Origin: Knoellia koreensis
GTDB taxonomy: Bacteria; Actinomycetota; Actinomycetes; Actinomycetales; Dermatophilaceae
DNA: 64,000 nucleotides
Assembly (NCBI RefSeq): GCF_013041615.1
Contig: NZ_JABEPQ010000002.1
Span: forward strand, 310,001-374,000
Direction: 5' to 3'
Part shown: piece by piece, positions 315-64,000 of the stretch
Layout of the letters: the number at the start of each line of letters is the position of its first letter
Position numbering within the stretch: position 1 is the first letter of the stretch
Notes under the pieces: generated by a model
Databases searched by the model: none
Told to the model about the DNA's origin: nothing
Seen by the model: the letters and a program-made list of their open reading frames with translations, nothing else
Position numbers and translations under genes: made by a program

Positions 315-418
315 GGCTTCGCTCGGTCTACTAATGCGAGTGAACCTCACACTTCCAGCATCACGCGGAAAAGCTGTGGCGAGGGAAGCGGGCGAGGTGA
401 ACACGCGGCATACCCACG

Positions 419-453
419 ACAAGGCCCGGAACCGATGAGGTTCCGGGCCTTGT
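419..453. terminator. Perfect 15-bp hairpin downstream of pruA
   Basis: ACAAGGCCCGGAACC, a 5-base loop (GATGA) and GGTTCCGGGCCTTGT form a perfect stem. It sits 14 bases past the pruA stop on the minus strand and can also act on transcripts arriving from the left. A single GTATGCCG-type octamer (406-413, reverse orientation) lies just outside it. Confidence 0.8.
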
Positions 454-466: not shown

Positions 467-2095
<1,629 letters not shown>

Positions 2096-2160: not shown

Positions 2161-3021
2161 ATGGTGACACGTATGCCGACCGCCGACGAAAGCGCCACCC
2201 TCACCTACCGCTGGGCCGGCCCCGCCGACCCGGCGACGCCGACCATCGTGCTGCTCCACGGTCTCGGCGACTCCGGCGACTGTTGGCCGGACGCCGTGCG
2301 ACGGTGGTCGCCGGCACACCGCGTCGTGGGGGTCGACCTGCTCGGTCACGGGAGGTCGCCACGCTTCACACCGGAGCAGCTCACCTCTGCCGACCCGATG
2401 GAGCAGATGTATGCCGCCGCCGAGGCCACCGTCGCCCGGATCGTCGCCGACCGAGGGGGTCCGGTCGCTGTCGTCGGGCACTCCATGGGTGGCGGGGTCG
2501 CCACGGCGCTGGCTGCCCGCCGGCCGGACCTGGTCGCGGCGGCGGTGCTGGAGGACCCGGCCTGGCGCGACCCCGCGTTGCGCGTGCAGGGGCCGGACGT
2601 GATCCGTGAGCGACTGGCCGACGTGCAGGCCTGGCACGACGACCCCGACGCCCAGCTGGCCGAGGGACGCCGCGACAACCCGACCTGGCCCGAGTCGGAG
2701 TTCGGTCCCTGGGCGGAGTCCAAGACCCAGGTGGACACCGCCTTCCTGGCGCTCGGTGTCGCGTCCCTCGTGGCGCCGTGGGACGAGCTGCTGGCGTCGA
2801 TCCGGGTGCCGACGTTGGCGCTGCTCGCCGGGCGGGGCGGCCCGGTGACTCCTGACGTCCGCGAGCGGGCCGGGCGCATCGACAATCCCCACTTGGTGAT
2901 TCGCGTGGTGCCGGGTTCGGGGCACTGCATCCGCCGTGACGTGCCCGACGACTACCACGCCCTGGTCGACCCCTTCCTCGCCCGCGCCCTCACCCCTGCC
3001 GACCGCGTGACGTCTGCGTGA
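2161..3021 (+). CDS. Alpha/beta hydrolase
   Basis: Soluble alpha/beta-hydrolase-fold enzyme of about 286 residues. The oxyanion-hole motif LLHGLGDSGDCW is near residue 35, the nucleophile elbow GHSMGGG puts Ser near residue 108, and GSGHCIR near residue 254 carries the catalytic His. An acid from the GRGGPVTPDV region would complete the triad. The substrate cannot be told from sequence. The gene is divergent from pruA with a gap of about 65 bases. The start is uncertain: ATG at 2161 or 2173, the latter overlapping a GTATGCCG octamer. No strong ribosome-binding site is visible for either. Confidence 0.8.
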   Translation: MVTRMPTADESATLTYRWAGPADPATPTIVLLHGLGDSGDCWPDAVRRWSPAHRVVGVDLLGHGRSPRFTPEQLTSADPMEQMYAAAEATVARIVADRGGPVAVVGHSMGGGVATALAARRPDLVAAAVLEDPAWRDPALRVQGPDVIRERLADVQAWHDDPDAQLAEGRRDNPTWPESEFGPWAESKTQVDTAFLALGVASLVAPWDELLASIRVPTLALLAGRGGPVTPDVRERAGRIDNPHLVIRVVPGSGHCIRRDVPDDYHALVDPFLARALTPADRVTSA

Positions 3022-3103: not shown

Positions 3104-3529
3104 TCAGAGGAGACGCAGGACCTCGTCGAGCTCGGTGGCGTCGTACCACAGCAGGTCGTCCAGGCCGGTGTCACCGGCGGTCTCGTCGAGGTGGAACGAC
3201 ACGATGCGGCGCAGCGGCACCGGCTCGGAGACGGTCACGGCGGACGTCTCGTCGCGGGTGCCGTCCGGCTCGACCGAGGCCGGGTCGACGTCGGCGGCCG
3301 CGATGACCCGCTTGCCGATCTCGTTCCCCTGCAACGCGAAGGCCGCCTCGGCCGCCTCCGTGAAGGCCGCGTGCTCGAGCTCCTCCTCGGCCAGGTCGGC
3401 GGGGTTGTCGCGCTCGAGCCGAGACGTCACGGCATACGCGGCAACGGGGGCGGGTCCGGCCTCGCGCGACTTCGCGAGCGCACGCAGGCCGGCGGCGGTC
3501 AGGGGCAGGTAGATCCGGGTCTGGCTCAT
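3104..3529 (-). CDS. DUF6912 family protein
   Basis: Small protein of 141 residues that starts RIYLPLTAAGLRALA, continues with YAVTSRLE and a Glu-rich EEELEHAAFTEAAEAAF helix, then RVIAAADVDP. This order is characteristic of the actinobacterial DUF6912 family, whose function is unknown. The ATG overlaps the stop of the patatin gene as ATGA, so it is the last gene of an operon with the patatin and the acyltransferase. A GTATGCCG octamer encodes Tyr-Ala in YAV. The family call is by pattern recognition. Confidence 0.75.
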   Translation of the reverse strand: MSQTRIYLPLTAAGLRALAKSREAGPAPVAAYAVTSRLERDNPADLAEEELEHAAFTEAAEAAFALQGNEIGKRVIAAADVDPASVEPDGTRDETSAVTVSEPVPLRRIVSFHLDETAGDTGLDDLLWYDATELDEVLRLL

Positions 3530-4527: not shown

Positions 4528-5951
4528 CGCTTGGACCGGTGGCTCTCGAGCAGCTCCCCGAGGGAGTCGACGATGCTCTGCCCGAGCACGTCGATGTCGG
4601 GCATCGAGTCACGATCGGCGTTGAGCCCGTAGTAGACCCCGCCGTCGTAGGACGTGAGCCCGATCGAGAGCGCCTGGCCGCGGGCGAGCGGCATCACGGG
4701 GTAGGTCGACAGCATGCGCGCGTCACCGGCATACAACGTGTGCTGGGGGCCGGGCACGTTGGTGATGACGACGTTGAACAGCCGCCGCGACACCGCCGAC
4801 CCGAGGCGGGCGCCCAGCGAGTGCAGCGTCGGCGGCGCGAAGCCCGCGAGACCGGCCAGCGACTCCGCACCCACGGCCTGCCCGCCCTCCATCTGCTGGC
4901 GCATGGCGAAGGCGATCTGGTGCAACCGCATCGACGGTCCCGGCTCCCCCACCGGCAGGTCGACGAACGAGGCGGTGAGCCGGCTGCCGACGTGACCGCC
5001 GTTGTCGTCGTAGACGCTGATCGGAACCATGGCGCGCACCGTCGTGCCGGGGTGCACGGCCTCGCCGCGGGTGAGCAGCCACGACCGGAACGCGCCGGCG
5101 ATGGTGGCCAGCACCACGTCGTTGATCGTCACGTCGTCGGCGTAGTTGCCGCGGGTCAGCTGGGTGCGGACCTTGCGGTAGTCCTTGAGGTCGGTGCCGA
5201 TCATGACGTAGCGCCGCGCCTCACCGACGGTTGCGTTGAGCGGTGACTGCGGCGCCGGCCGCGCGGCCGTCCGGGCGAGCGTCGACACGACGTCACCCAC
5301 GGCCGACAGCGCCCGCGAGCCGACCGCCTTGACGTCGACGATGCCGCCGCGGATGTTCTCGATGACCTCGCTCGGTCGCCGCACGACGTCGACGAGCGCG
5401 CCGGTGAGCAGCTCGACGTCGCTCGGCTCGCGCGACGGACGCCATGTGTCCGTCACCAGCCCCTCCGCCGCCGGGTCTCCGTCGACGATGACGTGGGCGA
5501 TGTCGACGGCGTTGATGCCGTCGACGAGCGCCTGGTGCGACTTGGTGACGATCGCGAACCGCCCCTGCGCCAAACCCTCGACGAGGTAGACCTCCCAGAG
5601 CGGTCGGTTGCGGTCCAGGGCGCGCGGCTGGATCCGCGCGACGAACTCCTGCAGCTGCTCGTCGCTTCCCGGCTTCGGCAGGGCGGACCGGCGCACGTGG
5701 TAGGTCACGTCGAAGTTCTCGTCGTCGACCCACACCGGGTTCGCCAGCCGGCCCGGGATCTGCCGCACCCGCTGGCGGTAGCGCGGGACGAACGCGATCC
5801 GCGTCGAGATCAGCTGCACCAGCCGGTCGTAGTCGAACCCGTCGCTCGGCGGGTCGAACACCATGACCGACCCGACGTGCATCGGGGTCGTCGCCTCCTC
5901 GAGATAGAGGAACGACGCGTCGAGCGAGTTGAGGCGGTCGGGCACCCCCAC
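4524..5951 (-). CDS. WS/DGAT/MGAT-family O-acyltransferase with altered active-site motif
   Basis: Bifunctional wax ester synthase/diacylglycerol acyltransferase family protein of 475 residues. Family members transfer acyl-CoA to fatty alcohols or diacylglycerol to make storage lipid. It starts LNSLDASFLYLEEATTPMHVG, the usual N-terminus, and has NDVVLATIAGAFRSWL and the C-terminal VITNVPGP block. The active-site motif, normally HHxxxDG, reads HQALVDG at residues 139-145, so the second His is Gln. The start is GTG at 5949-5951 and a second in-frame GTG follows two codons later. It is the first gene of the operon with the patatin and DUF6912. Only 34 bases separate it from the divergent lipoprotein gene. 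Confidence 0.88.
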   Translation of the reverse strand: MGVPDRLNSLDASFLYLEEATTPMHVGSVMVFDPPSDGFDYDRLVQLISTRIAFVPRYRQRVRQIPGRLANPVWVDDENFDVTYHVRRSALPKPGSDEQLQEFVARIQPRALDRNRPLWEVYLVEGLAQGRFAIVTKSHQALVDGINAVDIAHVIVDGDPAAEGLVTDTWRPSREPSDVELLTGALVDVVRRPSEVIENIRGGIVDVKAVGSRALSAVGDVVSTLARTAARPAPQSPLNATVGEARRYVMIGTDLKDYRKVRTQLTRGNYADDVTINDVVLATIAGAFRSWLLTRGEAVHPGTTVRAMVPISVYDDNGGHVGSRLTASFVDLPVGEPGPSMRLHQIAFAMRQQMEGGQAVGAESLAGLAGFAPPTLHSLGARLGSAVSRRLFNVVITNVPGPQHTLYAGDARMLSTYPVMPLARGQALSIGLTSYDGGVYYGLNADRDSMPDIDVLGQSIVDSLGELLESHRSKR

Positions 5952-5985: not shown

Positions 5986-6456
5986 GTGACGAAGACCTCT
6001 CGACGTGCCGTGTCGTATGCCGCCGGGCTGGCCCTCGTGACCGCCCTCACCGCGTGTGGAGGTGGCGACCCGGCGGGCGGTGGCGGCGCCACGTCGTCGA
6101 GCTCCACGTCGTCGAACCCGACGTCGTCCGGCAGCCCCACCAGCAGTGCCACGTCGACCACCTCCGCGTCGAGCTCGTCGACATCGACGCCGGCCGGCCG
6201 CACAGTCGAGGTCACCATCACCGGCAGGAAGGTCGACCCGGCACCGGCCACCGTCAAGCTCGGGGTGGGCGAGAAGCTCACCCTGACCGTGACGAGCGAC
6301 CACGACGACGTGCTGCACATCCACGGCTTCGACATCGAGAAGAACCTCAAGGCCGGTCAGCCCACGACCGTCGAGCTCACGGGTGACGCCCCCGGTGTCT
6401 ACGAGGTCGAGACCCACGAGCCCGAGCTGCGGCTGCTGAAGATCGCGGTCCAGTGA
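5986..6456 (+). CDS. Cupredoxin-like lipoprotein
   Basis: Exported lipoprotein of 156 residues. The signal peptide ends in a lipobox (LTAC followed by GGG). A Ser/Thr linker of about 45 residues comes next, then a cupredoxin-type beta domain (TVEVTITGRKVDPAP to the C-terminus). His residues in DVLHIHGFD and ETHEPELR are candidate copper ligands, although a classic type-1 Cys ligand is not visible. The GTG start at 5986 is the one that gives a short n-region before the hydrophobic core. The stop overlaps the next gene as GTGA. A role in metal or redox handling at the outer face of the membrane is inferred. Confidence 0.75.
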   Translation: MTKTSRRAVSYAAGLALVTALTACGGGDPAGGGGATSSSSTSSNPTSSGSPTSSATSTTSASSSSTSTPAGRTVEVTITGRKVDPAPATVKLGVGEKLTLTVTSDHDDVLHIHGFDIEKNLKAGQPTTVELTGDAPGVYEVETHEPELRLLKIAVQ

Positions 6457-7781: not shown

Positions 7782-9041
7782 TCAACGCCCCAGCCGCACC
7801 CGGCCGCGCTCTCGTCGCGAAACCGGCTGTGCGGCATACCGATCGGCGAGGCTGGTCACGGCTCGCCGCAAGGGCGACTGGGGTGCGTGCTCGGCCAGTG
7901 ACGTGCCCGCCAACATGGCCCCGTCGACCGCGGCCGGGTCCCACGGGAGGAAGACGACGTCGTCCATGCCCGCGAACCGGCCGAGCGCCTCACTGATGCG
8001 CCGCTCGGGGTGCGACCCGACCGCCGCGGCGCGTACCTTGTTGACCACGACAACCCGCGACGCCGGCGTGGGGACCACACCGAGGTCCTGCACCCCTCGC
8101 ACGAGTCGCTGGAGACCGACGGGGTCGCCGGCACCGACGACCACCAGCTCGTCCGCCTCCTCGAGGGTCGTGAGCGTGGTGGCGTTGCGGCGTGGAGCGA
8201 TGGTGTCGTAGGACAGCTCCTCGTCGTCCTCGATGCCGAACCCGCAGTCGACGACGACGAAGCGCACGAGCTGCCGGGCAAGGGTCAGCACGTGGGCGAC
8301 GGAGGGGGCGCGCAACTCGGTCCAGCGGTGGGCGCGCGGTATGCCGGTGAGGATGCGCAGTCCGCCGCCCACCTCGGGTGCCAGGCGGGCGAGCGCCGGC
8401 AGGTCGAGCGTGCCCTGGTCGGCGGCTCGACAGGCTGCCGCGACGCCCGGGGCCTCGTCGAGCAGCCCCAGCGCCTGGGCCTGCGACGAGCCGTAGGTGT
8501 CGAGGTCGACCAACAGGGTCGGGGCGCGCGAGGCGAGCTCGACCGCGAGGTTCAGGGCGACCGTGCTGCGCCCGGGCGCACCCGTCGGGCCCCAGACGGC
8601 GAGCACGCGACCCGGTTCGGCGTCGGGGTCGGCTGCTGGCAGCTCCTCGGGTGGTGGCTCGTCGTCGGGGCTGAGGCCGGTGCCGGCGCCCTCGGTCAGC
8701 TCGTCGAGCCGGTCCTGCAGGTCGGGCGCCGGGGTGTCGGCGACGACCACGACCTCGAGCCCGAGCTGGCGCAGCCGCCGCTCCCCCATCTCGTCGCCCG
8801 GGGCGACCACTCCCGCGACCAGCACCGAGTGCTGGGTCAGCTCGTGCAGGGCCGCACGGTCCAGCGCTCGCAGGTCGGCCGACACCAACGCCACCTCGCC
8901 GAGGCCGGCGGCGGCCGCAGCGAGCAGGTCGGGCAGGTCCGCGCATCGGCGCACCACGGCATACCCGTCCGTGCCCTCGACGGTCGTGACGAGGTCGGAC
9001 TCCCACGGGCCCGGAACCGCGGTGAGGACGGTCCGGCTCAT
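7782..9041 (-). CDS. CpaE/MinD-like P-loop ATPase with altered P-loop
   Basis: Protein of 419 residues. The N-terminal third resembles a receiver-like domain ([19 protein letters not shown] and VVVVADTPAPDL). A MinD/ParA-type ATPase domain follows at about residues 145-400, with TLLVDLDTYGSSQAQAL and RFVVVDCGFGIED. The deviant Walker A motif, usually KGGxGKT, reads TGAPGRST, so both lysines are missing. CpaE/TadZ proteins place tad pili at the cell pole. This one is encoded with a SAF protein (ATGA overlap), 15 kb away from the main tad operon, which has its own CpaE with an intact P-loop. The substrate or partner is unknown. Confidence 0.72.
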   Translation of the reverse strand: MSRTVLTAVPGPWESDLVTTVEGTDGYAVVRRCADLPDLLAAAAAGLGEVALVSADLRALDRAALHELTQHSVLVAGVVAPGDEMGERRLRQLGLEVVVVADTPAPDLQDRLDELTEGAGTGLSPDDEPPPEELPAADPDAEPGRVLAVWGPTGAPGRSTVALNLAVELASRAPTLLVDLDTYGSSQAQALGLLDEAPGVAAACRAADQGTLDLPALARLAPEVGGGLRILTGIPRAHRWTELRAPSVAHVLTLARQLVRFVVVDCGFGIEDDEELSYDTIAPRRNATTLTTLEEADELVVVGAGDPVGLQRLVRGVQDLGVVPTPASRVVVVNKVRAAAVGSHPERRISEALGRFAGMDDVVFLPWDPAAVDGAMLAGTSLAEHAPQSPLRRAVTSLADRYAAQPVSRRERGRVRLGR

Positions 9042-11081: not shown

Positions 11082-11969
11082 ATGACGACCACGGACCGCA
11101 CACCCACCCGCGTCCTCACCACCGCACTGGCCGCGCTCGTGGCCACGGGGCTGGCGATCCTCGCCCTCGGCGCCCTCACGCGCTCGCTCTGGGACCGGGT
11201 CGCCGCCCCTGGCCCGAGCAGCCTCGACGAGGTCGTTGCCGCGCTCGCCGCGGCGACCGCCCTTGCCCTGGCCGTGTGGCTCGGCCTCGGTCTGGTCATC
11301 GGGGTGCTCGGCCACCTGCCCGGTCGGGTGGGCGCGCTGGCCCGCGCGGCGAGCGGCCGGTGGACCCCGGTCGTGACCCAGCGGCTGGCCGCCGTGCTCG
11401 TGGGGGCCGTGGTCGGCGCCGTGGCAGCGCCCGCCAGCGCGGTCGGCGACTCGGTCGTCCCCGCCCCGGGGTTCAGCGCGTCCGCCGCTGCCTCGTCGAC
11501 GCCATCCGCGACCGCCACGACCGCGATGCCCCTCCCGCCCGCGGGTCCGGGCTTCACCTCGACGGCGCCGACGAGCGCGCCGACCAGTGCAGCGACCACC
11601 GGGCCGACCAGCGAGCCGACCAGCGAGCCGACGCCGGCCGCGACGTCGCCGGTCGCCCCGACGAGCGACATCGCTCCACCGGGGTGGACGCCGACCCGCC
11701 CCCTGGTGCGACCTCAGCCCTCACCCGAGCTGGTCACCGGACGCGTCGCGGACGGCGCCGAGGAGGGATCGGTGGTCGTGCGACGTGGCGACAGCCTGTG
11801 GGCCATCGCGGCTCGGCACCTCGACGCCGGAGCCAGTGACGCCGAGATCGCCCGCGCGTGGCCCCGCTGGTATGCCGCCAACCGCGACGTCATCGGTGAC
11901 GACCCTCATCTGCTCCACCCCGGAATGGTCCTGCAGGTCCCCGGCAGCCGGACGGCGGTGACCCGATGA
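11082..11969 (+). CDS. LysM peptidoglycan-binding domain membrane protein
   Basis: Protein of about 295 residues. The N-terminal half has two or three membrane segments (VLTTALAALVATGLAILALGAL; LALAVWLGLGLVIGVLGHL; LAAVLVGAVVGAVAAPASA). A long Pro/Thr/Ser linker with TSEPTSEP repeats follows, then a C-terminal LysM-type domain, VVRRGDSLWAIAARHL through LLHPGMVLQVPG. LysM binds N-acetylglucosamine chains of the cell wall, so the C-terminus should sit outside the membrane. I prefer ATG at 11082 (MTTTDRTPT) over the ATG at 11070. The stop overlaps the next gene as ATGA. Confidence 0.82.
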   Translation: MTTTDRTPTRVLTTALAALVATGLAILALGALTRSLWDRVAAPGPSSLDEVVAALAAATALALAVWLGLGLVIGVLGHLPGRVGALARAASGRWTPVVTQRLAAVLVGAVVGAVAAPASAVGDSVVPAPGFSASAAASSTPSATATTAMPLPPAGPGFTSTAPTSAPTSAATTGPTSEPTSEPTPAATSPVAPTSDIAPPGWTPTRPLVRPQPSPELVTGRVADGAEEGSVVVRRGDSLWAIAARHLDAGASDAEIARAWPRWYAANRDVIGDDPHLLHPGMVLQVPGSRTAVTR

Positions 11970-12499
11970 GCGCCCAGGGGCAGCTGCGACCCATCCGCAT
12001 CCTGCCTGCGCCCCGTCAGCGCCCGCCGGTGATCCCCGATCCCGAGTGGTCACCGTCGGACGCCGCACCGTCCCCGTACATCCAGGACGCCCTCGCGGTC
12101 GACTTCACGACCCTCACCGACGAGCAGCTCTTCGGCGCCCAGCCGACCCGACGCGACGACCTGCCCGACCCGCAGGAGTGGGGCGCCCATGTCGCACAGG
12201 CACTGGTCGAGGTGATGGCCGGCTCCCGGCCCGCGCCGCAGCTCCTGCGATGGACCGTGCCCGAGGTGTATGCCGTGGTCGCGCGGCGCGCGGTCGTGTC
12301 GGCCCGGCGGGCGGGCTCGCGCCGGACGGGCAGCGAGGTGCGCCGCACCGTCGTGCGCCGGGTGCGGGTCTGCGAGCCCGCCGACGGGGTTGCCGAGGTC
12401 AGCGCGGTCGTGGTCGACGGCAGCCGGGTGCGCGCCGTGGCGTTCCGGATGGTCGGGCTCGACGGGCGCTGGCGTGTCGAGGCACTCCAGGTGGGCTGA
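11966..12499 (+). CDS. Rv3235-family protein
   Basis: Protein of 177 residues encoded next to secA, as in mycobacteria. It has a Pro-rich N-terminus, then an alpha/beta domain with EWGAHVAQALVEVMAGSRPAPQLLRWTVPEVYAVVARR and ends VRAVAFRMVGLDGRWRVEALQVG. This is the Rv3235-type layout, related in shape to the small SecA accessory-like folds. Function is not established. It is translationally coupled to the LysM gene by an ATGA overlap and is convergent with secA. Confidence 0.75.
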   Translation: MSAQGQLRPIRILPAPRQRPPVIPDPEWSPSDAAPSPYIQDALAVDFTTLTDEQLFGAQPTRRDDLPDPQEWGAHVAQALVEVMAGSRPAPQLLRWTVPEVYAVVARRAVVSARRAGSRRTGSEVRRTVVRRVRVCEPADGVAEVSAVVVDGSRVRAVAFRMVGLDGRWRVEALQVG

Positions 12500-12550
12500 C
12501 CGCGGGAGCCAACCACGCGGCATACCGAATCGTGGTGCGGCACAACGCGA

Positions 12551-26532: not shown

Positions 26533-27908
<1,376 letters not shown>

Positions 27909-27912
<4 letters not shown>

Positions 27913-29896: not shown

Positions 29897-29912
29897 GATG
29901 AAGTCAGATTCC

Positions 29913-31824: not shown

Positions 31825-31876
31825 CCAACTCTCCTTCTGGCGCGTGGCATCCGACCCGTCGGTGCCTCCGTGTTGC

Positions 31877-51428: not shown

Positions 51429-51442
51429 AAAAGGAGTATGCC

Positions 51443-51871
51443 GTGGACCTCACCGTCGTCACCTACCTCACCTACCTGGCCATCGCCGTCCCCCTCACGA
51501 TCTGGGTCGCCCGCACGCTGTCCCGCAACGGCAAGGTCTTCCTCGTCGACGTCTTCGAGGGCAAGGACGAGCTCGCCGCAGCGGTCAACCAACTGCTCGT
51601 CGTCGGGTTCTACCTGCTCAACATCGGCTTCGTCGCGCTCTACCTGCGCGTCGGCGACACGGTCTCGACCAGCCGCCAGCTGGTCGAGACGCTCAGCGTC
51701 AAGCTCGGCGTCGTGCTGCTCGCCCTCGGTGTCATCCATCTGACCAACGTCTGGGTCTTCACCCGCATCCGCCGGCGCCACACCATGGACAGCCTGCGCA
51801 CTCCCCCGGTGCCGCCGCAGTTCACGGCGCCGGTCGCGCCCCAGCCCTTCCCTGCCCCGCCGACCGCATGA
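51443..51871 (+). CDS. Small membrane protein, first gene of the TetR operon
   Basis: Protein of 142 residues with about three membrane helices (VVTYLTYLAIAVPLTIWVARTL; LLVVGFYLLNIGFVALYL; VKLGVVLLALGVIHLTNVWVF) and a Pro-rich tail. I recognise no family. The GTG start has AAGGAG six bases upstream. The gap between that site and the GTG is filled by a GTATGCCG octamer, the last base of which is the first base of the start codon. It is coupled to the next gene by an ATGA overlap. Confidence 0.75.
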   Translation: MDLTVVTYLTYLAIAVPLTIWVARTLSRNGKVFLVDVFEGKDELAAAVNQLLVVGFYLLNIGFVALYLRVGDTVSTSRQLVETLSVKLGVVLLALGVIHLTNVWVFTRIRRRHTMDSLRTPPVPPQFTAPVAPQPFPAPPTA

Positions 51872-52281: not shown

Positions 52282-52691
52282 ACCACCTCTACGTTCTCTA
52301 CGACGCCGGTTGCTCCCTGTGCACCCGCTTCCGCGAGTGGCTCGAGGGCCAGCCCCAGCTCGTCCCGGTGACCACGCTCGCGGCCGGCTCGGCCGCGGCA
52401 TACCGGCTCCTGCCGGGACTCGACCACGACGCCACGCTGCGCGAGGTCACGGTCGTCAGCGACGCCGGCGAGGTCTGGACCGGGCCGCGCGCATGGGTCG
52501 TGACGCTCTGGGCGACCGCGTCCCAGCGCGCCCTCGCCGAACGCCTCGCCACCCCGGCCGGGCTCCCGGTCGCCCGGGCGATGGCGTATGCCGCGGCCGG
52601 CCTGCGCGAGGCCCTCGCGACCGCGGACACCACGCCGAGGGGCGGTGACTACATTGGCCGGTGTGACCAAGGCTGCGCCCACCCCGCCTGA
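52278..52691 (+). CDS. DCC1-like thiol-disulphide oxidoreductase family protein
   Basis: Protein of 137 residues with the DCC signature at its start: LYVLYDAGCSLCTRFREWLEG, where CSLC is the redox motif. The GPRAWVVTLWAT segment is also typical. Members of this thioredoxin-like family are of uncertain function. The GTG start overlaps the preceding stop as GTGA. The 3' end overlaps the TetR gene. Confidence 0.82.
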   Translation: MNHLYVLYDAGCSLCTRFREWLEGQPQLVPVTTLAAGSAAAYRLLPGLDHDATLREVTVVSDAGEVWTGPRAWVVTLWATASQRALAERLATPAGLPVARAMAYAAAGLREALATADTTPRGGDYIGRCDQGCAHPA

Positions 52692-53358: not shown

Positions 53359-53394
53359 CCGGGGCACACCGGCGACGTATGCCGCGCGGCCGGG

Positions 53395-54603
53395 TCAGCG
53401 GTCGCCGCGGCCCGTGCGGTCGGCCAGGTCGGCGACGTGCGGTGACACCGCCGGGTCGAGCCCGAGCCCGATCGCGAGGTAGGTCGCGGCGAAGTCGGTC
53501 GTGGCCATCAGCCCAGCGAGCCGCGTGACCGGTGCGCCGGGCTGCGCCGTTACCTCCGACACGGTGGCGCCCGCGTCGCGCGCGCCGCGCACGACGGCGT
53601 CGGTCAGGCCAACGGCCGCCGCCTGTTCCGGCGTGCTGGGCTCCTGCGGGGGCGCGTCGCGCAGCACGACGAGCGAGAGCCGCGGCGCGGGAGGTCCGTC
53701 GAGGTAGGGATCGGCGAAGATGTCGTCCACCGGCCGCCCGGCACCGACCGCACCCTCCTCCCCGCCGCCGAAGCTCGCAGTGAACGGCCCGTCGAAGCAG
53801 GCCACCACCTGGGCGGCGTCGTCGGGCAGCTCACCGGTGGTCGCCGGCATACGCGCCGTGCGGGCGAGCATCGAGGCGGCGCGGCCGGCAGCGACACCCG
53901 CGAGTGGTCCGTCGCCGAGCACCATCGGCACCCCGGCCGCGACGTCGGCCGCCAGCACCTTGGCCGGGTTGACGAACGACTCCGAGCTGGGGCGGCACGC
54001 CTCGGCCACTTCGTCGAGCCGGTCGGCGGTCGCGTGGAGCACCTGCTCGTCGACGTCGACGATCCCGAGCCGGCCGGCGCCCAGGAGTGCGGGGGCGAGC
54101 ATCGACCACATCGCCGTCCGGGACGAGGTGCGCCCTCGGCCGCTGTCGATGTGCACGCCGCGCGCCTGCGCCGACACCTCGGCGAGCGGCGAGTGCGCGG
54201 CTCCCACGGTCAACAACGACGCACCGCGCCGCGCGGCCTCGGCGGCCAGCGCCAGCGGGCCAGCGGCCCGGCCCGACAACGACACGGCGATGACGAGGTC
54301 GAGCGGGCCGACCCACCCCGGCAGGGGGACGTTGCGCCGCACCGAGACCGGCACGGGTGACCCCGGCTCGGCCAGCAGGTCGAGCACGTCGCACACGACG
54401 GCAGACCCACCGAGCGATGCCACGAGCACCGACCGCGGGCGCTCTCCCCCGGCGACGCGGTCGATGCCAGCCTCGAGGGACAGGTCGACGGCCTCACGCA
54501 CCTGGGCGCCGGCGGTCGCCAGCGCCCGCAGCGTCTGCCGCGAATCCAGGGCCGCGATCGAGTCCTCGCTGTCCATGCGGGCCTCGTCGAGGAAGGGAGC
54601 CAT
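53395..54603 (-). CDS. SIS-domain phosphosugar isomerase family protein (Rv3256c-like)
   Basis: Protein of 402 residues with a double SIS fold of the bifunctional phosphoglucose/phosphomannose isomerase group. The first SIS motif is VLVASLGGSAVVCDVLDLL; VIAVSLSGRAAGPLALAAEAARRGASLLTVG is the phosphosugar-binding loop; LGDGPLAGVAAGRAASMLA marks the second domain. It is encoded after manB and a Trm112-like gene, the same order as in mycobacteria (manB-Rv3256c). A role in mannose-phosphate supply for mannolipids and glycoproteins fits the glycosyltransferases in the window. Confidence 0.82.
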   Translation of the reverse strand: MAPFLDEARMDSEDSIAALDSRQTLRALATAGAQVREAVDLSLEAGIDRVAGGERPRSVLVASLGGSAVVCDVLDLLAEPGSPVPVSVRRNVPLPGWVGPLDLVIAVSLSGRAAGPLALAAEAARRGASLLTVGAAHSPLAEVSAQARGVHIDSGRGRTSSRTAMWSMLAPALLGAGRLGIVDVDEQVLHATADRLDEVAEACRPSSESFVNPAKVLAADVAAGVPMVLGDGPLAGVAAGRAASMLARTARMPATTGELPDDAAQVVACFDGPFTASFGGGEEGAVGAGRPVDDIFADPYLDGPPAPRLSLVVLRDAPPQEPSTPEQAAAVGLTDAVVRGARDAGATVSEVTAQPGAPVTRLAGLMATTDFAATYLAIGLGLDPAVSPHVADLADRTGRGDR

Positions 54604-54821: not shown

Positions 54822-56266
54822 GCGCCTTCTCCTCTCACCAGGGCGAGGACATCGTCCCGCACCTTTGCCATCGTGTCCTCGTCAGCCGCCTCGACGTTGA
54901 GCCGCAGCAACGGCTCGGTGTTGGAGGCGCGCAGGTTGAACCACCACATCGGGTCACCGTCGGTGCCGTCCCCGGCGTGGGTCGCGGTGAGCCCGTCGAG
55001 CTCGTCGAAGGTGCACCCACGCTCGCCCGCCCACGCCTTCACCTTCGCAGTGGCCGCGGGCACGTCGGTGACGGTCGAGTTGATCTCGCCCGACGCGGCA
55101 TACCGGCTGTATGCCGCCGCGAGCCGGCTGAGCGGCTCGGGCTGGCCGCCGAGGGCGGCCAGGACGTGCAGGGCCGCGAGCATGCCGGTGTCGGCGAACC
55201 AGAAGTCGCGGAAGTAGTAGTGGGCGCTGTGCTCCCCGCCGAAGATGGCGTCCTCGCGGGCCATCTCGGCCTTGATGAAGGAGTGCCCTACGCGGGTGCG
55301 GATGCCGCGCGCGCCCTCCTCGGCAATGACCTCGGGGACCGCGGCGGAGGAGATGACGTTGTAGACGATGCCCACGTCGGAGGCGTCGCGGCCCGCGGCC
55401 GTCTCGCGGGCGATCTCGCGGGTGGCGACGAGTCCGGTGATGGCGCTGGGGCTGACCGGTTCGCCGCGCTCGTCGATGACGAAGCACCGGTCGGCGTCGC
55501 CGTCGAAGGCGAGCCCGATGTCGGCACCGTGCTTGACGACGGCCACCTGGAGGTCGCGCAGGTTCTCCGGCTCCAGCGGGTTGGCCTCGTGGTTGGGGAA
55601 GGTGCCGTCGAGTTCGAAGTAGAGCGGCACGACCTCGAGCGGCAGCTCGGGCAGGCGGGCGGCGGTGCCGAGGACCGCCGGCACGGTGTGGCCGCCCATG
55701 CCGTTGCCGGCGTCGACGACGACCTTGAGGGGGCGGATCGTGGAGAGGTCGACGAGGCCACGCAGGAACGACGCGTAGTCGGCGAGCACGTCGCGCTCGG
55801 TGACCGTGCCGGGGGTGACACCGGCAGGTCCGGCGCTGACGCCGGCGTCGAGCAGGGCCTGCGCGTCGTCACGCACCGTGGCGAGCCCCGAGTCCTGCCC
55901 GACCGGGCGGGCGCCGGCGCGGCAGAGCTTGATGCCGTTGTACTGCGCCGGGTTGTGGGACGCCGTGAACATGGCGCCGGGCAGGTCGAGGGCGCCGCTG
56001 GCGTAGTAGAGGCCGTCGGTGCTGGCCAGCCCGATGAGGGTGGCGTCGAGTCCGTGAGCGGTCACCCCGGCCGCGAACGCGCGGGAGAGCTCGGGCGAGG
56101 ACGGCCGCATGTCGTGGCCGATGACGACCCCTGTGGCCCCCTCGCCACCGACGAGACGGGCGAATGCCGCGCCGAGGGCCCAGGCCACGTCGACGTTCAG
56201 CTGGTCCGGAACGACACCGCGGACGTCGTAGGCCTTGACGAAGTCGGCGAGTACAGGTGCGGGCAC
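54818..56266 (-). CDS. manB: Phosphomannomutase/phosphoglucomutase
   Basis: Converts mannose-6-phosphate to mannose-1-phosphate for GDP-mannose. The protein has 482 residues. Visible are KAYDVRGVVP at the start, the phosphoserine loop TASHNPAQYNG near residue 105, the Mg-binding DGDADR near residue 255, the sugar-binding GGEHSAHYYFRDF region and the phosphate-binding RASNTEPLLRLNVEA. I chose GTG at 56264-56266 because it gives the family's usual start (VPAPVLADFVKAYDVRG). The frame is open upstream to 56383. In Mycobacterium the orthologue precedes the SIS gene in the same way. Confidence 0.95.
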   Translation of the reverse strand: MPAPVLADFVKAYDVRGVVPDQLNVDVAWALGAAFARLVGGEGATGVVIGHDMRPSSPELSRAFAAGVTAHGLDATLIGLASTDGLYYASGALDLPGAMFTASHNPAQYNGIKLCRAGARPVGQDSGLATVRDDAQALLDAGVSAGPAGVTPGTVTERDVLADYASFLRGLVDLSTIRPLKVVVDAGNGMGGHTVPAVLGTAARLPELPLEVVPLYFELDGTFPNHEANPLEPENLRDLQVAVVKHGADIGLAFDGDADRCFVIDERGEPVSPSAITGLVATREIARETAAGRDASDVGIVYNVISSAAVPEVIAEEGARGIRTRVGHSFIKAEMAREDAIFGGEHSAHYYFRDFWFADTGMLAALHVLAALGGQPEPLSRLAAAYSRYAASGEINSTVTDVPAATAKVKAWAGERGCTFDELDGLTATHAGDGTDGDPMWWFNLRASNTEPLLRLNVEAADEDTMAKVRDDVLALVRGEGA

Positions 56267-59750: not shown

Positions 59751-61250
59751 TCAGCCCAGCGGCTCCCGGCGCACCGTCACCGCGTCGGTACGCAGCGTGA
59801 CCTCGGTCAGGGCCGTCGTCGTGACGAGCGTGCCGTCGGCGTCGTCGGCCCACGTCAGCACCGCGGCCCGGACCTCGCCGGCACCCGCGACCCGGCGCAC
59901 CCACACCGAGGTGGCGTTCCCCGGCAGCACCGCGTTGGACACGCCGTCCACGCCGAGCTTGATCTGCTGCCTGATGGTCTTGCCCGAGGTGTCCACGGTG
60001 ACCACCTCGGCAGTGGCCTGGTCCTTGGCGGAGGTCAGGAGGAGCTGACGCTTCAGCCCGCTGGAGTCTCCCGACGGCGTCGGCACGGCGGTCCCGGCGA
60101 GCGCGCCGACCGGCATACTGCTCGCCGACCACGCGAAGTCGCCGGGCCGACCGGGCTGGCTCCGCTCGACCATCGCACCAGCCACGACCGGGCGATCGGC
60201 ACGCACCTGCACGGCATACCAGCCGGGTTTGACCCCACTGAGGTCGATGTCGCGGACCGTCCCGCCGCCGACGCGCACCACACCGTCCTTGGGCAGCGCA
60301 CGCGGCCCGTCCGGCGTGAGCAGGCGCGCCTGGACGACGGCCTCGTCGGGCCCGGGCACCACGACCCGCAACCGGGCCGCACCCGCGATGGCGACACCAG
60401 GCACCACCTGGTCGCGCGAGGGAGCCGCGGTGGGCCCGACGGTGTCGGAACCCGCGGCACGCACCCCGTCGAGCCAGGAGTCGTTGAGCGCCGCACCGAC
60501 GACGCCGCCGTTGGCGACGACGTGGATCGCCGGGGAGTCGATGTCGGGGGCGATCGAGTCGACGAGGTATGCCGTGCGGCCGTGGGCCGGCACGACGATC
60601 CCCTCGCCCGCCCCGGAGGCGACCTTGCCGTCGGGGCCGTGGAGCGTGACGTCGACCGTGACGGGGTTGCCACCGGGGTTGGTCAGGACGAGCCGCTCCT
60701 GCCGGCCGGGTGCCCCACCGCCGGCGAGGAGCCACAGGTCGGTGCCCGGGCGGGTGCACGAGGTCGAGGCGAGGGCGCGCCGGTCGCCCGACCGCACCCA
60801 CCAGGCCTGCGCGGCCGCGAGCCCGGGCGCGAGGGACTTGCTCGCGGTGACCTCCACGCCCACGGCACGCCCGGCGGCGCCCTGGACGCGGGCGCCCCGC
60901 TGCGACCCGGCGGCGGTGAGCGGCTTCCCGGCCATGGTGTTCAGCTTGACGGAGCCCTTGTCGCCGGAGGGCCGCAGGTCGCCCAGCACCGAGTCGGGTG
61001 CGGTCACGCCCGCCACCTGCGTGTCGGTGGGGATGTCGTCGACCCCCGGCACGCCGGACAGCTCCGACCCCGGGCAGACCAGCGACGCCGAGGTGACCGC
61101 GGCGCCGGTGGCTGCGGGGGCGGTGTCGGTCCGCTGCGGCTGCGAGCCCAGTGCGACCGAGCCCTCGACCTGCGTCGCGGCGAAGACGAGACCGGCACCC
61201 GCCGCCGCGACGACGCACGTGCGGGCGAGCCCGGCAATGGAGACCTTCAT
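59751..61250 (-). CDS. DUF5719 family exported protein
   Basis: Protein of 499 residues with an N-terminal signal-anchor (GLARTCVVAAAGAGLVFAATQV), then a beta-rich extracytoplasmic region made of repeated Ig- or adhesin-like strands (RQERLVLTNPGGNPVTVDVTLHGPDG; ARLRVVVPGPDEAVVQARLLTPDG). DUF5719 proteins are encoded directly after a large GT2 membrane glycosyltransferase in many actinomycetes, as here (ATGA overlap). Together they probably act on the cell envelope. Exact role unknown. The gene carries three GTATGCCG octamers. Confidence 0.88.
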   Translation of the reverse strand: MKVSIAGLARTCVVAAAGAGLVFAATQVEGSVALGSQPQRTDTAPAATGAAVTSASLVCPGSELSGVPGVDDIPTDTQVAGVTAPDSVLGDLRPSGDKGSVKLNTMAGKPLTAAGSQRGARVQGAAGRAVGVEVTASKSLAPGLAAAQAWWVRSGDRRALASTSCTRPGTDLWLLAGGGAPGRQERLVLTNPGGNPVTVDVTLHGPDGKVASGAGEGIVVPAHGRTAYLVDSIAPDIDSPAIHVVANGGVVGAALNDSWLDGVRAAGSDTVGPTAAPSRDQVVPGVAIAGAARLRVVVPGPDEAVVQARLLTPDGPRALPKDGVVRVGGGTVRDIDLSGVKPGWYAVQVRADRPVVAGAMVERSQPGRPGDFAWSASSMPVGALAGTAVPTPSGDSSGLKRQLLLTSAKDQATAEVVTVDTSGKTIRQQIKLGVDGVSNAVLPGNATSVWVRRVAGAGEVRAAVLTWADDADGTLVTTTALTEVTLRTDAVTVRREPLG

Positions 61251-64000
61251 GCTCGCCTCCGGGACGCGCGGTTGCCGAACGGGATGGCGAGGAAGGCCAG
61301 GACGAGCAGCGTGATCCCCTGCGCCCAGCGCCACCACTGGTCGCCCGGGAGGACGTCCACCGTGACCGTGTGGGCGCCGGCCGGCAGCCGGTATGCCGCC
61401 TGCTCACCGGTCGGGGCCAGGACCGTTCCGTCGCTGGTCACCTTGGCGTGCCGGGTCCAGGCGGGCGGCTCGGCGAGCACGAGGCTGGCACCGGCCGGCA
61501 CGTTCAGACGCTCGCTCAGGGTGCCGTGCGGCCCGTTGGACAGGACGACCTGCTCGCCCTTGGCGGTGACCAGGCGGGCGCGTGAGGGAGCGACGCTGTC
61601 CTCGGCGGTGCCGCCACCGGGCAGCACCCGCCAGAAGAGCGTGCCCTCGTGCTCGCCCAGCCGGCTGAGGCCGGCGGTGGCGTCGAGGGTGCGGACCCGC
61701 GCGTCGTCCTCGGTGGTGCGCAGGCCCACGAACCCGACCGCCTGGTCGGACAACGCCTTCGCCGGGGTCGCACCGGCACCCGACTCGGCGTCGGCGAACA
61801 GCGCGCCCAGCGTGCTGGTGAGGCGGCCGTCGTCGGAGGAGTCGGCGGGACGTGGTGGCAGGGTGCGGGCGACGTCTCCGGGCTCACGACCGAGCAGCGA
61901 GTAGGTGTAGCCGGACCCGGCCGGGGTCAGGAGCACCATCCGGTTGGCGAAGCCGTTCCCGGCCTGGTCGATGGCCACCGCCGGTCGCGGGTCGGTGAAC
62001 GCACCGACCTCGTCACCCGTGGTGCGGACCGCGGTCCAGCCTGCGCTGAGCAGGACGGCGGCGATGAGCGCGACCCCGACCGGCCAACGTGTCAACGCCA
62101 CCCAGCCTCCGCGCGTCCGGCTGACCGGCAGGCCGTCCGCGGCGAGCAGGGCCATCGCGACGAGGGCGAGCGCCCACACGAGGAGCCCCGTGCCGGCCCA
62201 GGCGGTGACGGGCTCACCGGCGCGCGCCAGCCCACCCGGCACGGTGCCGAGCTCGAGCCGCGGTGCGAGCACGGCATACGCGAGCCCGATGAGCCCCACG
62301 ACCGCGACGAGCGAGGCGGCACGACCACGTCCGCCCACGCGGACGAGGCCCAGCAGGCCGGCGAGGACCAGCGGTGCCGACAGCAGGACGGGGTAGGAGC
62401 CGGGGCCGCCGGGGTGCAGGAGCGCGAGCTGCCACGGCAGCGCCTGCGGCGTGCCCCAGACGGACAGGCCGGGGCCGGTGAGGACCAGCTCGGGTCGTTC
62501 GAGCAGGGTCGCGACCCAAGGACCCAGCAGCACCAGCGGCAGCACCAGGAGGGCGAGCCCGCGCCACCGGGCCGAACCGCGACCGGCGACGACGAGGACG
62601 AGCGCCACTAGGAGCGCGAGGGCGGCCAGGGCCGGGACGAAGGCGCCGAGCACGGCGATGGCGATCGCGGTCGCCGCGGAGCTCGTCGTGGTGCCGCCCC
62701 GGCGCCCGGCGAGGGTGAGGCCCGCCGCCACGAGCGGCAGCAGGATCGCGGCCACGACGGCCCCGATGCGGCCGACCGCCACCGCCGTGACGAGCACGGC
62801 CGACGTCGCCCAGGCGAGCGCCGCGAGCGCGCGGGGCCACCGTGAGTGGGTGACGACGCGGGCGGCGAGGTATGCCGCGAGCGTCGCAAGCGGCAGCGCG
62901 AAGGTGAGCAGGAGGGTCACCACCGCACCGGCGGGTGACGCGGGTGCGGCGACGAAGGGCACGTGCGTGACGAGCCAGGCCAGCCCCGCCAGCACCGGTA
63001 GGTGCGGCCCGGCCTCGGCGGCGCTGCCGAGCCCGGCACCATGCCACCCGTCGAGCCAGCCGTGGAACAGCGCGCCCGGGCCGGCGGTGACGCCCTGGAG
63101 CTCTCCGCCGGTGACGCCTTGGTCGACGCGGGCGGCGAAGGTGCCACCCATCGCCCGGGTGGCGACGACGCTGACGACCGTCATCAGGACCACGGCGACG
63201 AGGCCGGGGTTGCGGATGGCGCGGGTCAGCCAGGTCTCGCCGAGGACGTTGAGGTCCTCGGCCTCGTCGGCCACGGGCCCGGACTCGCCGGAGGGGTCGG
63301 TCGGGCGGGTGACGGCCTGCGGGTCGTCGTCGAGGGTGACCTGGTCGTGGATGAGGTCGGCCGTGTGGCGCAGGACCACTCGCCGGGGCACGAACAGCCC
63401 GGTGAGGTCGCGGCGGCGCACGGCCCGGGTGCCGCGGGAGCGCCAGCGGGCGCCGAGCACGCGGCCGGGCGTGAGGACGGCGCCGATGTCGGCCAGCTCG
63501 GCCCAAGCAGCGCGGGGGCGCTTGGCCACGAGCAGGGCGAGTGCGGCCAGGACGCTCGACACGACCAGCCACAGCGCGAGGAACGGCAGGGCCAGCCACG
63601 AGCAGCGGGCGAGGGCGGCCCGGCGGGCCTGACGACGCACGCGGTTGACCGGGTCGGTGGGCGGGGCAGGGAGGTCGGTCTCGTCGTCCTCGCGGACCGG
63701 GGCGCCGGTGCGCAGGGTCGCACGCGGCACGACCACCACACGGCGGCCGGACTGCTGGGCCCGCCAGGAGAAGTCGACGTCGGCGCCGAAGTCACCGAGG
63801 GCACGGTCGGGACCGCCGAGGGAGCCGAAGAGGGAGCGCTCGACCAGCATGCCGGTGGCGGGGACCGCGAGGACGTCGGTGCGGCGGTCGTACTGGCCCT
63901 GGTCCGGCTCGCCGGGTGCCGGTGAGGGGATGACGCGGCCCGTGCGGGTCAGCTGCACCCCTACCGACCGCAGGCCGGTGGGGGCGTCCCACTCCATGAG
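61247..64000 (-). CDS. Large GT2-family membrane glycosyltransferase, N-terminus beyond window
   Basis: The frame is open to the last base, so the start lies outside. The visible 918 residues begin inside a GT2 catalytic domain (VPATGMLVERSLFGSLGGPD and GDFGADVDFSWRAQQSGRRVVVVPRA, the acceptor-side DxDxxxR-like motif). A linker follows and then about fourteen membrane segments with large loops up to a short cytoplasmic tail (NRASRRRA). This is the actinobacterial polytopic GT2 that pairs with DUF5719. It is likely to make or export a cell-wall polysaccharide (inference). Three GTATGCCG octamers lie in it. Confidence 0.88.
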   Translation of the reverse strand, partial: LMEWDAPTGLRSVGVQLTRTGRVIPSPAPGEPDQGQYDRRTDVLAVPATGMLVERSLFGSLGGPDRALGDFGADVDFSWRAQQSGRRVVVVPRATLRTGAPVREDDETDLPAPPTDPVNRVRRQARRAALARCSWLALPFLALWLVVSSVLAALALLVAKRPRAAWAELADIGAVLTPGRVLGARWRSRGTRAVRRRDLTGLFVPRRVVLRHTADLIHDQVTLDDDPQAVTRPTDPSGESGPVADEAEDLNVLGETWLTRAIRNPGLVAVVLMTVVSVVATRAMGGTFAARVDQGVTGGELQGVTAGPGALFHGWLDGWHGAGLGSAAEAGPHLPVLAGLAWLVTHVPFVAAPASPAGAVVTLLLTFALPLATLAAYLAARVVTHSRWPRALAALAWATSAVLVTAVAVGRIGAVVAAILLPLVAAGLTLAGRRGGTTTSSAATAIAIAVLGAFVPALAALALLVALVLVVAGRGSARWRGLALLVLPLVLLGPWVATLLERPELVLTGPGLSVWGTPQALPWQLALLHPGGPGSYPVLLSAPLVLAGLLGLVRVGGRGRAASLVAVVGLIGLAYAVLAPRLELGTVPGGLARAGEPVTAWAGTGLLVWALALVAMALLAADGLPVSRTRGGWVALTRWPVGVALIAAVLLSAGWTAVRTTGDEVGAFTDPRPAVAIDQAGNGFANRMVLLTPAGSGYTYSLLGREPGDVARTLPPRPADSSDDGRLTSTLGALFADAESGAGATPAKALSDQAVGFVGLRTTEDDARVRTLDATAGLSRLGEHEGTLFWRVLPGGGTAEDSVAPSRARLVTAKGEQVVLSNGPHGTLSERLNVPAGASLVLAEPPAWTRHAKVTSDGTVLAPTGEQAAYRLPAGAHTVTVDVLPGDQWWRWAQGITLLVLAFLAIPFGNRASRRRA

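Follow-up and report, generated by a model that had tools for sequence, protein, structure and literature searches.

To our knowledge, Neisseriaceae and Pasteurellaceae are the only families in which strong DNA uptake sequences have been described. The uptake sequences (DUS) of Neisseriaceae are reported to occur in thousands of copies, in genes and in the gaps between them, including inverted pairs capable of forming hairpins; their dialects are described as following phylogeny, with two dialects possible in one genome, and their sites as highly conserved and missing from recently acquired genes (PMC3630211, PMC2397512). Uptake through the USS of Haemophilus is reported to be independent of orientation (PMC1939737). 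In cyanobacteria, the octamer HIP1 (GCGATCGC) reportedly occurs at low frequency in exceptional genomes, in which other HIP sequences are present (PMC4390886). For Micrococcus luteus, in which the comEA/EC locus was tested alongside the tad loci, deletions in either tad locus are reported to abolish transformation, in part only for one tadB (PMC4322843).

Here we describe a dispersed octamer, GTATGCCG, of the actinobacterium Knoellia koreensis that shares with the reported DUS its abundance, its placement in genes and gaps, inverted pairs, dialects, co-existing dialects, site conservation and absence from acquired DNA. It differs from the DUS in that its host is a monoderm actinobacterium, in that the word is an 8-letter core compared with 10–12 letters in Neisseriaceae, and in the mutual repulsion of copies in the same orientation. 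No earlier description of this word was found in the literature searched. We consider it probable that GTATGCCG forms the core of an uptake sequence used by naturally transformable members of a single actinobacterial family.

Abundance in the window and the genome

The window is a 64-kb stretch of DNA, in which a preliminary description had counted 50 exact copies of GTATGCCG, 27 forward and 23 reverse. Our recount gives the same totals, spanning positions 406 to 62877. The same description had expected two to three copies, a 20-fold excess; dinucleotide shuffling of the window (n = 100) yields a mean of 0.75 and a maximum of 3, so that the earlier expectation was too high and the excess is about 67-fold. 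Of the chance models used, only this shuffle was replicated; the Markov figures given below are point estimates. The octamer excess is thus confirmed as real. The word stands apart from its neighbours in sequence: of 75 GTAT tetramers in the window, 50 continue into complete GTATGCCG, and its one-mismatch variants occur 0–8 times each. The copies, in window coordinates, are as follows.

406–413, minus strand, exact copy
1691–1698, plus strand, exact copy
2171–2178, plus strand, exact copy
2409–2416, plus strand, exact copy
3430–3437, minus strand, exact copy
4727–4734, minus strand, exact copy
6015–6022, plus strand, exact copy
7832–7839, minus strand, exact copy
8339–8346, plus strand, exact copy
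8957–8964, minus strand, exact copy
11870–11877, plus strand, exact copy
12268–12275, plus strand, exact copy
12518–12525, minus strand, exact copy
15945–15952, plus strand, exact copy
16221–16228, minus strand, exact copy
16735–16742, plus strand, exact copy
17858–17865, plus strand, exact copy
18106–18113, minus strand, exact copy
19192–19199, minus strand, exact copy
20430–20437, plus strand, exact copy
20981–20988, minus strand, exact copy
21579–21586, plus strand, exact copy
24703–24710, plus strand, exact copy
26391–26398, minus strand, exact copy
26515–26522, minus strand, exact copy
28635–28642, plus strand, exact copy
33392–33399, minus strand, exact copy
34202–34209, plus strand, exact copy
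35737–35744, plus strand, exact copy
39075–39082, plus strand, exact copy
40828–40835, minus strand, exact copy
40918–40925, plus strand, exact copy
41960–41967, minus strand, exact copy
47747–47780, intergenic hairpin from two words (47747–47754 plus, 47773–47780 minus) between converging called genes, fold −29.4 kcal/mol
49368–49397, intergenic hairpin from two words (49368–49375 plus, 49390–49397 minus) between diverging called genes, fold −24.7 kcal/mol
51436–51443, plus strand, exact copy
52396–52403, minus strand, exact copy
52586–52593, plus strand, exact copy
53377–53384, plus strand, exact copy
53845–53852, minus strand, exact copy
55096–55116, close pair in reverse order (55096–55103 minus, 55109–55116 plus) within a called gene
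60111–60118, minus strand, exact copy
60212–60219, minus strand, exact copy
60567–60574, plus strand, exact copy
61391–61398, plus strand, exact copy
62272–62279, minus strand, exact copy
62870–62877, plus strand, exact copy

The whole-genome count is far above expectation, with 3,986 copies in 4.28 Mb (1,983 plus, 2,003 minus) against 114 (54/60) of the reversed word in the same genome. In 344 kb of this genome, no other 8-mer has as high a z-score for over-representation as GTATGCCG (288 copies compared with 7.0 under an order-2 Markov model, an excess of about 40-fold). The balance of orientations noted earlier holds both by stretch (chi2 3.6 on 14 df across 14 stretches) and by genome (across the 110 genomes of the family in which the word occurs 300 times or more, the strand z-score averages −0.07, sd 0.77), the replication origin being unmapped. 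The earlier statement that no wider repeat surrounds the word was nearly right: its flanks hold little information and their preferences vary from genus to genus, but a weak extended consensus, gga..gGTATGCCGcgtggttg, is present in this genome, where GTATGCCGCGTG occurs 34 times compared with about 0.04 expected.

Gene context and orientation-dependent spacing

Within genes, the word overrides codon choice. In the context G TAY GCC G, tyrosine is encoded by TAT in 115 of 125 cases, compared with 70 of 1,735 elsewhere, and the synonymous TAC correspondingly in 10 of 125 and 1,665 of 1,735. That the word merely reflects the usage of codons or dipeptides (Tyr-Ala), or stems from a dispersed repeat family, might be read from the 115 of 241 coding copies that encode Tyr-Ala in the sense frame; this explanation, to which we give almost no credence, is refuted by the preference for TAT, by the spread of coding copies over four main frames and by an excess in gaps, and the scant flank information also speaks against it. 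Intergenic copies number 81 compared with 39 expected, a share that is approximate because genes were called by a simple codon-model script rather than a standard gene finder. The preliminary description, which had placed copies within genes and gaps and in several frames, is borne out. Most of the 327 sites examined stand singly, and eight of the ten word pairs within 60 bp are ordered plus then minus, able to form stem-loops.

Spacing is more regular than random (CV 0.85), which, together with the dispersal of the word, would suit some other strand-read chromosome signal, such as a site bound by a protein of the nucleoid or of chromosome segregation. We judge this very unlikely: KOPS are expected to show a strand bias that is not seen here, and mobile-looking stretches and whole genera without the word, as well as two dialects together in single genomes (see below), argue against it.

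The spacing depends on orientation. Within 1 kb, 179 same-orientation pairs are found compared with 326.1 expected, whereas opposite-orientation pairs show no depletion, and the word therefore seems to act strand-specifically. This count leaves out a 21.7-kb stretch (L090) that duplicates DNA in L076/L077, and its Poisson p-values treat pairs as independent. Among 100 control 8-mers with enough pairs, GTATGCCG itself included, the next two lowest after the word (0.29 and 0.33) both overlap it, and the lowest unrelated 8-mer stands at 0.425; in the dialect genomes by themselves, sites were too few for the effect to be demonstrable. As far as we know, orientation-specific spacing is a new observable bearing on the polarity of uptake. 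It is not what would be expected of a tag like that of Haemophilus, for which uptake is reported to be orientation-independent (PMC1939737), whereas here only same-orientation copies repel, which hints indirectly at dependence on orientation.

The main rival of the uptake reading, in our view unlikely, is a Chi-like recombination signal, at which a helicase-nuclease (candidate types being AdnAB, AddAB and RecBCD) would stop degradation in one orientation; the word would then be needed about every 2 kb per strand and wordless DNA would be destroyed. Like Chi, GTATGCCG is short and asymmetric and may be read on a single strand. A strand-read signal would be expected to make same-orientation copies repel each other below 1 kb and to leave opposite orientations unaffected; near-absence from mobile-looking DNA also fits. 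Known Chi sites, however, are biased toward the direction of replication along the replichore, a bias with no counterpart in the strand counts above, and some 4,000 copies, genus dialects, loss from whole genera and intergenic hairpins would be unusual for Chi.

An iterated octamer of the HIP1 kind, linked to DNA methylation or mismatch processing and maintained by a mutational or modification bias with no receptor, is a further explanation that we regard as improbable. Cyanobacterial HIP1 is likewise reported to abound in a single bacterial group while being rare in some of its members (PMC4390886). Yet HIP1 is palindromic and tied to orphan methyltransferases whereas GTATGCCG is asymmetric, and a strand-blind process would not yield repulsion in one orientation.

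Distribution, dialects and retention in the family

Abundance of GTATGCCG is limited to one family, whose word-bearing genomes have from hundreds to thousands of copies each. In a survey of 186 actinobacterial genomes of the family, 108 carry at least 0.1 copies per kb, 67 fewer than 0.045 per kb and 11 lie between, while 22 genomes of the order outside the family hold 2–167 copies. Carriers include Intrasporangium oryzae, Phycicoccus elongatus, Knoellia remsis, Ornithinimicrobium, Terrabacter and Humibacillus. The word has been lost in whole genera and, within genera, in G065, G127 and G151.

One-letter variants serve four genera as dialects: GAATGCCG (3,135 copies in G022 compared with 9–352 in 57 other genomes), GGATGCCG (3,816 in G026 and 3,838 in G071 compared with 447–1,336 in 30 others), GTATGCGG (511–1,204 in all four g21 genomes compared with 7–459 in 28 others) and GTATGACG (1,557 in G013, 834 in G014 and 597 in G021 compared with 7–344 in 29 others). 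Dialects follow phylogeny, being present in both g17 genomes and all four g21 genomes, with g13 and g4 represented by one genome each; G013 and G022 carry two dialects side by side. The highest count of GGATGCCG among non-g17 genomes is that of G011 (1,336), a possible user of this dialect. We do not claim GTACGCCG or GGCGTACG as further dialects; both are frequent outside the family too.

Between species, the word appears to be kept in place by selection. Sites are retained above same-frame flanking 8-mers in G001 (19 of 29 compared with 20.6%, p = 7e-7), above flanking 8-mers in G008 (13 of 18 compared with 14.6%, p = 3e-7) and in G027, of another genus (4 of 5 compared with 9.1%, p = 9e-4), and more weakly in G002 (p = 0.007), G006 (p = 0.049), G009 (p = 0.11) and G010 (p = 0.058), with p < 0.05 in five of seven comparisons. 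Two stretches that resemble mobile elements are almost free of the word: no copy occurs in the 20 kb of contig C14 that were read (ParA, SSB, restriction-modification, transposase), and one occurs in a 20-kb stretch with a relaxase and a transposase. Whole-genome excess, site retention, dialects, codon override and this near-absence establish the octamer as a genome-wide signal, as the preliminary description had proposed. The genome count, the scan of related genera and the strand comparison, checks suggested in that description, all favour its interpretation, which is supported in part.

Competence genes and proposed uptake mechanism

DNA uptake appears to fit best, and the machinery known from M. 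luteus is present: G000 carries ComEA, ComEC and two tad loci, as identified by homology only. Over-representation, strand balance, inverted pairs, site conservation, dialects and these competence genes are all found, as in DUS and USS systems; the replichore bias of Chi and the palindrome of HIP1 are not.

The gene correlate of the word is weak. In 11 of 35 word-poor genomes, compared with 0 of 12 word-rich ones, the tadA of tad-1 is missing or reduced to a remnant (p = 0.024, for 47 genomes of our choosing with kinship ignored and some incomplete, such as G116 at 83% and G135 at 89%), and this association fades once interruptions and pilin losses are included (14 of 35 compared with 2 of 12, p = 0.13). 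G064 and G160 have kept the word although tadA is interrupted; many word-poor genomes retain intact tad-1, ComEA and ComEC; and ComEC is split in word-rich G004 and appears split in G028. In G065 and G151, which lack the word, the readable sequence shows no visible damage to the machinery: ComEC of G151 looks truncated only because the contig stops there, and the ComEA gene of G065, seemingly truncated by tblastn, is intact. ComEC presence, being universal (57 of 58 genomes and 47 of 47), was rejected as a correlate.

No receptor gene for the word was found among the competence and tad genes compared, and neither the tad-2 proteins nor the minor pilin-like proteins encoded in tad-1 differ cleanly between word-rich and word-poor genomes. 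A candidate between degV and comEA (in 15 of 31 relatives) was dropped, as it is presumably PlsY, judging by its motifs. A type IV pilus link was likewise rejected, PilM (PF11104) occurring in 13 of 58 genomes and, within the family, only in G030 and G035. The cognate DUS receptor, ComP, is a type IV pilus minor pilin, whereas none of the 11 genomes of genus g1 searched has the pilus marker PilM, which makes a ComP-type minor pilin an unlikely receptor here.

We propose that a putative surface or membrane receptor of the Tad-pilus/ComEA–ComEC machinery would bind the word, leading to preferential import of kin DNA, and that recombination of the imported fragments would maintain and spread the word, whether by drive, by selection for kin DNA or by the two together. 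The restriction of repulsion to same-orientation copies makes polar uptake probable, in which a word would control the entry of a single strand, or of the DNA on one of its flanks, over about 1 kb. The fuller picture—an uptake sequence outside Proteobacteria, in a monoderm family, with polar Tad-pilus uptake, a putative receptor, dialects that partly isolate gene pools and a spacing rule of about 1 kb reflecting the range of the word—is one that we think could equally well prove right or wrong. If true, it would represent a third independent origin, in monoderms without type IV pili, implying that sequence-specific 'sex' evolves repeatedly, and there would be a new receptor to find. Selection and molecular drive would become testable against each other across the more than 100 genomes of a single family that are rich in the word, with the dialects and the losses within genera (G065, G127 and G151) serving as natural experiments.

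Abundance, placement and codon override

An exact recount returns the 50 window copies of the octamer GTATGCCG (hereafter the word) reported in the preliminary description, 27 forward and 23 reverse, spanning positions 406 to 62877; dinucleotide shuffles of the window contain 0.75 copies on average and 3 at most. Its 75 GTAT tetramers narrow to 62 GTATG, 57 GTATGC, 55 GTATGCC and 50 full words, and one-letter neighbours of the word occur 0–8 times each. The proposed whole-genome count (4.28 Mb, 15 contigs) gives 1,983 forward and 2,003 reverse copies, bearing out the near-equal orientations claimed from the window, versus 54 and 60 for the reversed control (the word read backwards). In 344 kb of this Knoellia koreensis genome the word is the top 8-mer by z-score (288 copies versus 7.0 under an order-2 Markov model), and the extended form GTATGCCGCGTG occurs 34 times versus about 0.04 expected.

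A simple script based on a codon model called 313 genes in 341 kb (88% coding), and 327 words were placed against these calls; as first described, they lie in genes, in several frames, and in gaps. Fully intergenic words number 81 (39 expected), and the 241 genic words read as Tyr-Ala in sense (115), Ala-Tyr in antisense (72), Met-Pro (24), Gly-Ile (23) or otherwise (7). Words hold 115 of the 185 TAT codons and 23 of the 37 ATA codons in called genes. Tyrosine within G-TAY-GCC-G is encoded by TAT 115 times and TAC 10 times, versus 70 and 1,665 elsewhere (Fisher p ~1e-120). The word overrides codon choice, and this skew, with the share of TAT and ATA codons inside words, therefore places the signal at the DNA level.

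Gaps between words average 1,000 bp with a coefficient of variation of 0.85, somewhat evener than random. Adjacent pairs within 60 bp number 10 among the 327 words versus 18 expected at random; 8 of the 10 run forward then reverse (binomial p 4e-4), yielding stem-loops, in agreement with the hairpin pairs first noted.

Hairpins of a forward and a reverse word in the window
47747–47780; between converging genes; fold −29.4 kcal/mol
49368–49397; between diverging genes; fold −24.7 kcal/mol

Because its flanking genes diverge, the hairpin at 49368–49397 is not a plain terminator.

Orientation-dependent spacing

Among adjacent words separated by more than 60 bp, 218 of 316 pairs in K. koreensis are opposed in orientation (p 1e-11). 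Eleven further word-rich genomes, taken together, give 243 of 379 (p 4e-8), G022 being scored by its own dialect (a one-letter variant of the word). Second neighbours in K. koreensis, opposite in 147 of 311 cases, do not alternate. Pair correlation indicates that adjacent words alternate because same-orientation pairs are scarce at 60–1000 bp: 64 versus 140.1 expected in K. koreensis (0.46, p 5e-13), 115 versus 186.0 in the other genomes (0.62, p 1e-8) and 179 versus 326.1 combined (0.55). At 150–500 bp such pairs fall to 0.26–0.27 of expectation in K. koreensis, and inside one called gene 13 of 73 pairs 60–1000 bp apart face the same way. Convergent (203) and divergent (197) pairs, each with 177.5 expected, are if anything in slight excess, and at 1.5–5 kb every pooled pair class lies within 5% of expectation. 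For 99 control 8-mers with enough pairs, the same-orientation share below 1 kb averages 0.53 (sd 0.07), versus 0.27 for the word; the nearest controls (0.29 and 0.33) are fragments of the word, the lowest unrelated one being 0.425. Taken singly, dialect genomes give samples too small to show or dismiss the pattern, with opposite neighbours in 13/29 (G026), 24/43 (G022) and 16/27 (G013) cases.

We read this as strand-specific action of the word over roughly 1 kb. A Chi-like signal, the main rival to a DNA uptake sequence, would likewise be read on one strand, but the lack of strand bias and the hairpins weigh against it. The orientation-dependent spacing is apparently a new rule; within the literature searched, which covered few subscription journals and no preprints, there was no report of the word or of this rule, and no uptake sequence reported for Actinobacteria, PMC6370729 included.

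Relatives, dialects and site retention

Word-bearing genomes belong to a family that we take to be Dermatophilaceae/Intrasporangiaceae. In a 58-genome set, all 11 genomes of the K. koreensis genus carry 625–3,986 copies, and other family genera are mostly either rich or poor; 22 genomes from other families of the order have 2–167 copies, a ratio of 0.5 to 3.6 to the reversed control in the same genome. The scan of related genera suggested at the outset found at least 0.1 words per kb in 108 of 186 family genomes, less than 0.045 in 67 and intermediate values in 11. At the 0.1 per kb cut, 25 of 53 family genera lie at or above it throughout, 22 below throughout and 6 are mixed. Lone poor genomes occur inside rich genera (G065 in g50, G127 in g26, G151 in g68); the other 30 genomes of g68 carry 394–1,901 copies each.

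A ComEC-based scan of named genomes (best 80 of 585) showed that the word is frequent near comEC in Phycicoccus elongatus (21 in 21.7 kb), Knoellia remsis (11 in 14.7 kb), Humibacillus (15 and 13), Terrabacter sp. Root85 (12), Intrasporangium oryzae (10) and three Ornithinimicrobium (15, 7 and 7). The corresponding region has no copy in P. jejuensis, I. flavum, Janibacter indicus or Dermacoccus abyssi. Separately, 21.7 kb of Actinokineospora sp. NBRC 105648 (L162) contains AGTGCCGC 32 times and CTGCGGCA 34 times versus about 2 expected, which points either to a further enriched word or to repeats arrayed locally. The GTACG-containing 8-mers GTACGCCG, GTACGTCG, CGTACGCG and ACGTACGC exceed expectation about 5–13 fold in stretches L112, L125, L135, L137 and L140, from several further actinobacteria (a Frankiaceae MAG, Kribbella, Nocardioides and Hamadaea).

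Variants first emerged from de novo counts around comEC in 32 genomes of the family; whole-genome counts then upheld four dialects, all single-letter changes at position 2, 6 or 7.

Dialects and their whole-genome copies
GAATGCCG; G022, 3,135; other 57 genomes, 9–352
GGATGCCG; both g17 genomes, 3,816 and 3,838; other 30 genomes, 447–1,336
GTATGCGG; all four g21 genomes, 511–1,204; other 28 genomes, 7–459, the upper end being larger genomes
GTATGACG; G013, 1,557, raised too in G014 (834) and G021 (597); other 29 genomes, 7–344

G022 and G013 carry GTATGCCG (1,025 and 2,288 copies) besides their own variants, so two dialects co-exist; letters flanking the word vary between genera. Such genus dialects, and the losses of the word, also weigh against a Chi-like signal, which we consider unlikely. 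In word-poor G012, GTATGCGG occurs 17 times consecutively at 60–61 bp spacing (C17, 129291–130273), as either a CRISPR-like or a tandem repeat array.

Retention was scored for K. koreensis words against same-frame flanking 8-mers in aligned comEC and tad-1 regions (tad-1 being one of its two Tad-pilus loci), with the comEC region alone for G002 and G009.

Sites retained exactly versus flanking 8-mers (Fisher p)
G001; 19/29; 20.6%; 7e-7
G002; 9/15; 25.7%; 0.007
G006; 6/19; 14.0%; 0.049
G008; 13/18; 14.6%; 3e-7
G009; 5/18; 14.1%; 0.11
G010; 6/20; 13.8%; 0.058
G027 (another genus, 73% identity); 4/5; 9.1%; 9e-4

Word-poor G011 retains 0 of 17 sites versus 6.4% of flanking 8-mers. Two of the 14 K. 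koreensis stretches of 20 kb first read are nearly or wholly without the word. L022, the first 20 kb of the 37.6-kb contig C14, has 0 words and encodes ParA, SSB, a XamI-type restriction enzyme and methylase, a Mu-type transposase and a P-type ATPase; C14 is probably a plasmid or integrated element. L017 (contig C9) has 1 word and encodes a relaxase and a Mutator transposase, though KdpA and genes of fatty-acid metabolism lie there as well. Collectively, the data establish a genome-wide, conserved, dialect-bearing word with orientation-dependent spacing that is lacking in two mobile-looking stretches.

Competence machinery and the proposed uptake role

K. koreensis encodes ComEC and a ComEA in which SLBB and helix-hairpin-helix parts were recognised by eye. 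It also has two tad loci of Micrococcus luteus type (tadA-tadB-tadC-pilin-minor pilins). In M. luteus, according to PMC4322843, the comEA/EC locus was assayed beside tad deletions, and deletions in either tad locus abolished transformation (one tadB only partly). The type IV pilus protein PilM was found in none of the 11 genomes of the genus. A third Tad/Flp-like locus occupies 23609–32280 of the window and also has a CpaB-like and a TadE-like gene (labels by eye).

Genes of the third Tad/Flp-like locus
26533–27939; TadA-like ATPase
31582–32280; three small Flp-pilin-like genes, two near-identical (labels by eye)

Among 47 hand-chosen genomes (12 word-rich, 35 word-poor), tad-1 tadA was compared for presence with the word. 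Each of the 12 word-rich genomes gives a high-scoring match, though the gene is split by insertions in G064 (13 kb) and G160 (37 kb); of the word-poor genomes, 10 lack it, G134 has a remnant and G138 a split copy. G127 and G202 show loss or reduction of tad-1 pilin genes, and comEC of G127 is also frame-broken. As raw counts uncorrected for kinship and genome completeness, tadA is gone in 11/35 word-poor versus 0/12 word-rich genomes (p 0.024), and any tad-1 damage affects 14/35 versus 2/12 (p 0.13). In full loci read, a sample biased for both groups as most were fetched via their tadA, all seven tad-1 genes are kept in 15/18 word-poor and 15/15 word-rich genomes. Because tad-1 is intact in most word-poor loci read, competence loss can account for the word's disappearance in only part of the cases.

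The DNA inserted in tadA is mobile-looking: that of G160 (L243–L244, C7) encodes a tyrosine integrase close to its junction and shows a direct repeat of 10 bp, that of G064 (L245, C1) carries transposases, and that of I. flavum (G138; L207–L208, C23) comprises about 35 kb, its ends having been read. Prophages sit in competence genes of other bacteria, and the tadA insertions recall these.

The Haemophilus uptake signal also has a spacing of about 1,000 bp (PMC7811141), but uptake there is reportedly independent of its orientation (PMC1939737), whereas spacing of the word is orientation-dependent. If the word is a DNA uptake sequence, its orientation-dependent spacing suggests polarity, either of uptake or of the choice of strand. 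We propose that the Tad/Com machinery would recognise the word during DNA uptake and that recombination of imported kin DNA would maintain it.
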